Below are positions 59,119-60,516 of a stretch of 64,000 bases of DNA, piece after piece (within the stretch, counting starts at the first letter, position 1; the number at the start of each line of letters is the position of its first letter). Where the stretch lies: positions 62,001-126,000 of the forward strand of contig JAAELK010000120.1 in NCBI GenBank assembly GCA_024226935.1. The letters run 5' to 3'. This stretch comes from Desulfobacteraceae bacterium (GTDB lineage Bacteria > Desulfobacterota > Desulfobacteria > Desulfobacterales > Desulfobacteraceae). Made by a program: the position numbers and the translations under genes. Below the pieces are notes generated by a model. That model was not told the DNA's origin. It saw nothing but the letters and a program-made list of their open reading frames with translations, and did no database searches.

Positions 59119-59168
59119 GACAAGATTTGCTTTTCAGCGCAAGGCATATCACCAAACAAAAAACACCA

Positions 59169-59204
59169 AGTTCCCTAACCGGAAACCTCAATGGAACCGC
59201 CTCA
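59169..59204 (-). promoter_or_regulatory. Predicted bacterial SECIS hairpin downstream of the arsS UGA
   Basis: On the minus strand, UGA is followed after three bases by GGUUCC (59198-59193). That pairs with GGAACU (59174-59169) around an 18-base loop that contains GGU, as bacterial SECIS loops do. It is short and its loop is larger than the E. coli fdhF one, so only structure prediction against SelB would settle it. Confidence 0.45.
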
Positions 59205-60164
59205 GGTGAATCCGCTGCCGGCAGTGCAGGCGTAACAATGATTACCCACGGCAACCTCCTGATTATTAAAATTCATATTTGTCAAATCACCGATATGTGT
59301 TCTTAAATTGCCCTTGGGCAATCGAGCTGCCAGATTAAAATCACAATCGTAAAGATACCCGTCCCAGGATATCGAAATCAAATGACGACACATCAATCCG
59401 TCCAAGGTACATGGATTAAATTTTTCCCAGAGGGATTTCAGATAGGTCTCAAAAATTTCTTTTTTTTTCAACCAGGTTTCGAACCGTCCCAGGGGCATGT
59501 TGGCAAAGGTGAACAATCGATTGAAAACAATCCCCCATTTATCTTTGAGTACCCTGCGAAATCGTTTTTCCGCTACGGCCTGGGGGGTGGGCATGAACGC
59601 ACCTGCCGGATTTGACACCAAATCCAGAACAAGACTTGCATCCTTTTTCCCATACCCCATATCATTGAGCAGTTTTATAGCCTTAATGCTCTTATCAAAC
59701 ACCCCTTCCCCCCGTTGGCCCTCGGTTTGGGAAAGATTCAATGATGGCAGAGAAGCAACAATAGTTACCCTGTGTTTCACCAGCAAATCCAGTAGACCAG
59801 GATCATTGATATCATAGAGTGCACTCAAGTTGGACCGTAACATCAGAGTATTGGTCAATCCGGCCATTTCCTCAATCAAAACCGGCAGATGGGGATTCAT
59901 TTCAGGAGCCCCACCTGTGATATCCACTACCTCACAGGCAGCCTTTTTTTGAAATTGGATCACCTGGTGGATGGTGGCAAGATCCATAAGTTCTTTTCGC
60001 CCAGGGCCCGCCGACAAATGACAATGTTTACAAACCTGATTACATAAAAGACCCAGGTTTATCTGGCAGATGACCGTCTCTCCCCGTTTCAGGAAAAGAC
60101 CATGATTCTTGAGGGTTTGATCAAAATCAGGAAAGCCACCCTCTTGTAAATTTTGAATTTCCAT
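59175..60164 (-). CDS. arsS: ArsS-like radical SAM protein, predicted selenoprotein (UGA at residue 321)
   Basis: 329 residues if the in-frame TGA at 59204-59202 is read as selenocysteine; the upstream part is 320 residues. The SAM cluster Cys41, Cys45, Cys48 (CNQVCKHC), ITGGAPEM, MLRSNLSA and the DUF3641 C-terminal part (CRHLISISWDGYLYDCDFN, then CYACTAGSGFT) are ArsS-like. Homologues carry a Cys or Sec in a C-terminal GG motif; here the codons after the TGA give GGSIEVSG and then TAG, which matches. The family is linked to arsenosugar biosynthesis. AhpD-like 60184-60516 is its usual partner. Terminating at TGA would lose the conserved motif. Confidence 0.8.
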
Positions 60165-60183: not shown

Positions 60184-60516
60184 TTACATTGACATTTTTT
60201 CAGCTATATTTCTCATCTGAACTCCGTGGACCAGAGAGGCTCCACCCCGGATGGCCGTGGCCACATGAAGAGCTTCCGTCATTTCAGAAAGATTGGACCC
60301 TTTTTCAAGGCAACCTTTGGTATAGGCATCAATACAATAAGGACACTGGATGGTATGGGCCACAGCCAGGGCTATCAGGGATTTTTCCCTTGCCGTGAGA
60401 TCTCCTTCAGCAAAAACTTGCCCATAGTATTCAAAAAAATTTTTAGCAAGTTCAGGGGCATCTTTCCCAACTTCTTCAAATTTTAACAGATCTTCCGGAT
60501 TATAATAATTTTCCAT
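60184..60516 (-). CDS. AhpD/CMD-family protein, arsenosugar-associated peroxidase-like
   Basis: 110 residues of the carboxymuconolactone decarboxylase/AhpD fold: FFEYYGQVFAEGDLTAREKSLIALAVAH, then redox motif CPYC in HTIQCPYCIDAYTKG, and HVATAIRGGASLVHGVQMRN. Its place 19 bp upstream of arsS matches the arsS-linked, peroxidase-like family, where the first active-site residue is Sec in some genomes and Cys here. A thiol-based reductase or peroxidase role is plausible. Confidence 0.87.
   Translation of the reverse strand: MENYYNPEDLLKFEEVGKDAPELAKNFFEYYGQVFAEGDLTAREKSLIALAVAHTIQCPYCIDAYTKGCLEKGSNLSEMTEALHVATAIRGGASLVHGVQMRNIAEKMSM

Follow-up and report, generated by a model that had tools for sequence, protein, structure and literature searches.

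The biochemically studied ArsS acts on dimethylarsenite, which is adenosylated via the 5'-deoxyadenosyl radical. Radical SAM enzymes that adenosylate arsenic have been reviewed (PMC12159101), and cyanobacterial ArsS is reported, in work as cited by PMC8552651, to carry out the initial steps of arsenosugar synthesis together with ArsM. The NCBI model for the family, TIGR04167 (rSAM_SeCys), is named "arsenosugar biosynthesis radical SAM (seleno)protein ArsS", and TIGR04167 is included among the predicted selenoprotein families in reviews from 2022 (PMC9312934) and 2026 (PMC13188914). Both reviews give AAR34688.1 as the reference protein, and the later one adds the motif GxxU (PMC13188914). Both listings (ref [11] in 2022 and ref 13 in 2026) go back to Zhang and Gladyshev (2005). 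Two further NCBI models are of interest here: TIGR04283, named as an arsenosugar biosynthesis glycosyltransferase, and TIGR04169, named as an arsenosugar biosynthesis-associated peroxidase-like protein. The short name of the latter, perox_w_seleSAM, places its association with ArsS already on record.

The window analyzed here is a stretch of 64,000 nucleotides from a Desulfobacteraceae genome. It contains an arsS gene with the following features:

59175..60164, minus strand: arsS, encoding a radical SAM/DUF3641 protein of 329 aa with predicted Sec321 (TIGR04167, PF12345 and PF04055 matches)
59202..59204, minus strand: in-frame TGA, the predicted Sec321 codon, opposite the invariant Cys of homologues (alignment)
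59168..59188, minus strand: predicted hairpin of the bacterial SECIS type, overlapping the true stop codon (folding, family comparison and published model)
60184..60516, minus strand: AhpD-like protein with CPYC, TIGR04169 perox_w_seleSAM (189.1 bits, cut-off 120)

As conventionally called, the arsS ORF runs on the minus strand from the ATG at 60164 to the TGA at 59204-59202 and encodes 320 aa. The original prediction had noted that the frame continues beyond the TGA through GGSIEVSG to a TAG, and that a conventional call drops nine residues (Sec and GGSIEVSG). Both statements were confirmed, with the TAG located at 59177-59175; the boundary it quoted, 59169, lies 6 nt beyond the true gene end (59175). 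The read-through product, ending in ...HCYACTAGSGFT-U-GGSIEVSG, scores 375.6 bits in a profile search with TIGR04167 (curated cut-off 300 bits) and covers profile positions 2-303 of 303. This match, which extends beyond the TGA as far as the end of the profile, was counted in favor of Sec decoding. Both a Radical_SAM (PF04055) and a DUF3641 (PF12345) domain are present, the cluster motif CxxxCxxC appears as CNQVCKHC, and the C-terminal motif HCxxCTAG...(C/U)GG appears as HCYACTAGSGFTUGG. In a 35-sequence alignment the Cys/Sec positions of these motifs are invariant, including the column of the TGA when U is read as C.

The window gene therefore shares with described members of TIGR04167 the full-length match above the cut-off, a C-terminal GG motif bearing Sec/Cys, the radical SAM and DUF3641 domains, and the AhpD-like neighbor. 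Nothing essential differs, although ArsM was not found above its cut-off in this genome. With AAR34688.1, which we take to be a Geobacter radical SAM selenoprotein, it shares the TIGR04167 assignment and a GxxU motif (GFTU in the window), a likeness drawn from the family listing. With the ArsS of Synechocystis it shares the family by name; the cyanobacterial enzyme is presumably the Cys form, whereas the window ArsS would carry Sec. Since the family is already catalogued as selenoprotein, both in publications and in the NCBI models, the window ArsS is well supported as an ordinary member of a known selenoprotein family and does not represent a discovery.

It is very likely, judging from sequence comparison, that the UGA is read as Sec in an ArsS-family protein. 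The gene would encode ArsS (TIGR04167) with Sec nine residues from the C-terminus. A hairpin starting 13 nt downstream would recruit SelB with Sec-tRNA(Sec), so that the UGA at 59204-59202 is decoded as Sec, and translation would end at the UAG within the hairpin. Sec321 would take the place of the invariant Cys in CxxCTAGxGxx(C/U)GG, and automatic gene calling drops this residue, which is probably essential for catalysis or as a ligand. By analogy with the biochemically studied ArsS, the enzyme would adenosylate dimethylarsenite. The probable task of Sec/Cys is to hold the arsenic substrate or to join in redox chemistry, perhaps together with the CPYC AhpD-like protein as a partner. A structure model of ArsS (pLDDT 85.7) has low confidence at residues 322-328, directly after Sec, and for this reason cannot place Sec near the active site; among solved structures, its fold comes closest to radical SAM enzymes that modify peptides, such as SkfB.

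An arsenosugar role for the window ArsS, again by analogy, is reasonably likely: TIGR04283 is present in this genome, but no ArsM reaches the cut-off there, and ArsM-like genes are found in less than half of the ArsS-bearing genomes examined. The alternative that survives best accepts Sec incorporation but supposes that in this lineage the radical enzyme makes no arsenosugars and, with its AhpD-like partner, uses some other substrate; we consider this possible, though doubtful. It is favored by the best NF008823 (ArsM) match in the genome, which reaches 62 bits against a cut-off of 263 in a MAG that is 95% complete and leaves the supply of methylated arsenic unproven. ArsM-like matches (E up to 1e-50) were found in only 17/37 genomes with Sec-type ArsS and 19/43 with the Cys type, and the arsS neighbors scanned in the window include no arsenic genes except the TIGR04169 partner. 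Set against this, the environment may supply methylated arsenic, TIGR04283 is matched above its cut-off on another contig of the genome, and most loci have a TIGR04169 relative next to ArsS, an adjacency that is kept across phyla. It is unlikely that in this lineage Sec-containing ArsS and its CPYC partner act as a redox pair whose role lies outside arsenosugar synthesis and does not depend on ArsM.

Two further observations concern ArsM-like genes. One of the best ArsM matches, on the window's contig (L191:1330-2241), is a fusion of an ArsR-type regulator with a methyltransferase. In addition, ArsM-like genes with one in-frame TGA were seen in the ArsS-bearing genomes G318, G355, G026, G191, G330, G390, G105, G174, and G210; PMC13188914 lists arsenite methyltransferase among the selenoprotein families.

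The TIGR04169 gene lies directly upstream of arsS, and the two are likely co-transcribed. The AhpD-like protein (60184-60516) was considered as a second selenoprotein and rejected: its motif is CPYC in all of the approximately 125 readable neighbors (a few being duplicate copies of one gene), and Sec was found in the CxxC neither in the window nor in any of these loci. The original prediction had assigned this protein to a family known with Sec, which does not hold for TIGR04169; the reported Sec versions (CxxU) belong to other AhpD families (PMC13188914).

Returning to Sec decoding in ArsS, the TGA was compared across homologues. Of 395 genomes searched from the phylum, 121 had ArsS, and a search of public genomes added 80 more ArsS loci, the nearest being from Desulfobacteraceae and Desulfobacula MAGs. 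C-termini read from the fetched loci comprised 47 of the Sec type (the window gene and 46 others) and 109 of the Cys type. Sec-type tails have GFTU ahead of GG-like residues, with GFSU or GSTU in a few of them, and Cys-type tails are mostly GSSCGG; three Cys-type genes (L183, L185, and L186) share the GFT context of the Sec type. The expectation that Cys or Sec stands just ahead of Gly-Gly in ArsS was borne out, the window's TGA falling exactly in the column of the Cys homologues, and the alignment of the two sets of tails supports Sec. Sec/Cys pairs this clear-cut within one radical SAM family would be useful to test what selenium adds to the formation of the carbon-arsenic bond.

The codons 3' of the TGA carry a further signal. 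Rather than all ending at the TGA with no conserved glycines beyond it, the 47 Sec-type genes have Gly at U+2 in every case (47/47) and at U+1 in 40/47, and U+4 is occupied by Ile or Val in all 47. Second codon positions after the TGA show little variation, those of codons 2 and 4 being invariant, while the third positions vary freely, a pattern that translation through the TGA would leave.

The predicted hairpin of the window has an 8 bp stem (AGGUUUCC/GGGAACUU) and an apical loop GGUUA at 59180-59176 that starts 21 nt past the UGA, with an MFE of -11.0 kcal/mol. The original prediction of a hairpin with GGU in its loop was correct as to the loop; its placement three bases after the UGA was not, as the main stem starts 13 nt after the UGA (approximately 8-10 nt with weak outer pairs included). 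The bSECIS consensus constraints, from a model traced to Zhang and Gladyshev (2005), were taken from PMC13188914, and the window hairpin agrees with all of them: the loop has 5 nt beginning with GG, the stem 8 bp, the spacing is 21 nt, and the MFE is below -7.5 kcal/mol. It differs from the consensus in enclosing the true stop codon, a consequence of how close Sec is to the C-terminus.

Compared with shuffled sequences, the window hairpin alone is unremarkable (z between -0.2 and -1.9 for the different segments folded; p ~0.06 at fixed position). The family was tested by requiring at least 4 contiguous pairs and a loop starting 18-21 nt after the UGA or Cys codon. With this same spacing search a hairpin was found in 46/47 Sec-type genes vs. 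20/109 Cys-type genes. The mean hairpin score was 16.1 in the Sec type compared with 9.9 after shuffling, and 7.8 in the Cys type both before and after shuffling. Each stem position in the Sec-type genes is occupied by several different Watson-Crick pairs, indicating compensatory change. The loops seen most often are AGUU, AGGU, and longer forms of these. Across the ArsS family the predicted hairpin thus occurs far beyond chance, and this comparison is the decisive one.

All four components of the Sec machinery for which the genome was searched are present: selA (610 bits), selB (357 bits), selD (365 bits), and the tRNASec gene selC (76.9 bits, also called by ARAGORN). The selD gene (L026:1471-2526, on contig C159 of the same genome) has one in-frame TGA, read in the context SGUAAK, so that the gene for selenophosphate synthetase is itself a selenoprotein gene. 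In related genomes the presence of selC does not separate carriers of the two ArsS types (31/37 for the Sec type vs. 36/43 for the Cys type), and is uninformative in this respect, tRNASec being present in the majority of genomes sampled.

These results bear on whether the TGA could be a genuine stop, the protein ending in ...SGFT and the downstream GG being a relic. Conventional ORF callers do report such an ORF, and few residues would be lost so near the C-terminus. The residue lost would be the invariant Cys/Sec, however, and the TGA and the codons after it are kept with a coding signature in 47 divergent genes; together with the conserved hairpin and the Sec machinery this makes a genuine stop highly improbable. 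That the TGA arose from TGC or TGT by sequencing error or by a recent nonsense mutation has a negligible probability: although the assembly is fragmented (590 contigs) and a single base change would suffice, three close relatives from independent genomes (L060-L062, 76-84% identical) share both this TGA and the TAG stop, which rules out sequencing error. About 40 genes at greater distance also have the TGA, and nearly all of them carry the hairpin. Homologues, coding signal, family hairpin, and sel genes agree in supporting the proposal that the apparent arsS stop codon is a selenocysteine codon.

A scan of the window for other TGA-interrupted frames found 26 with the required long flanks, a requirement by which Sec near either end of a gene would escape, and none gave any sign of being a gene, several lying opposite listed ORFs. 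One relative of ArsS, L179 (genome G289), carries a TAG in frame and was considered for recoding and rejected; its reading goes on in another frame and it therefore looks like a frameshift. Finally, in 26 of the 47 Sec-type genes (L063-L067, L142-L170, and others) the true stop codon is a second UGA, usually six codons past the Sec UGA and within the SECIS hairpin (e.g., GCCUG-AGUU-CAGGC). In such genes two UGAs approximately 20 nt apart are presumably decoded differently.
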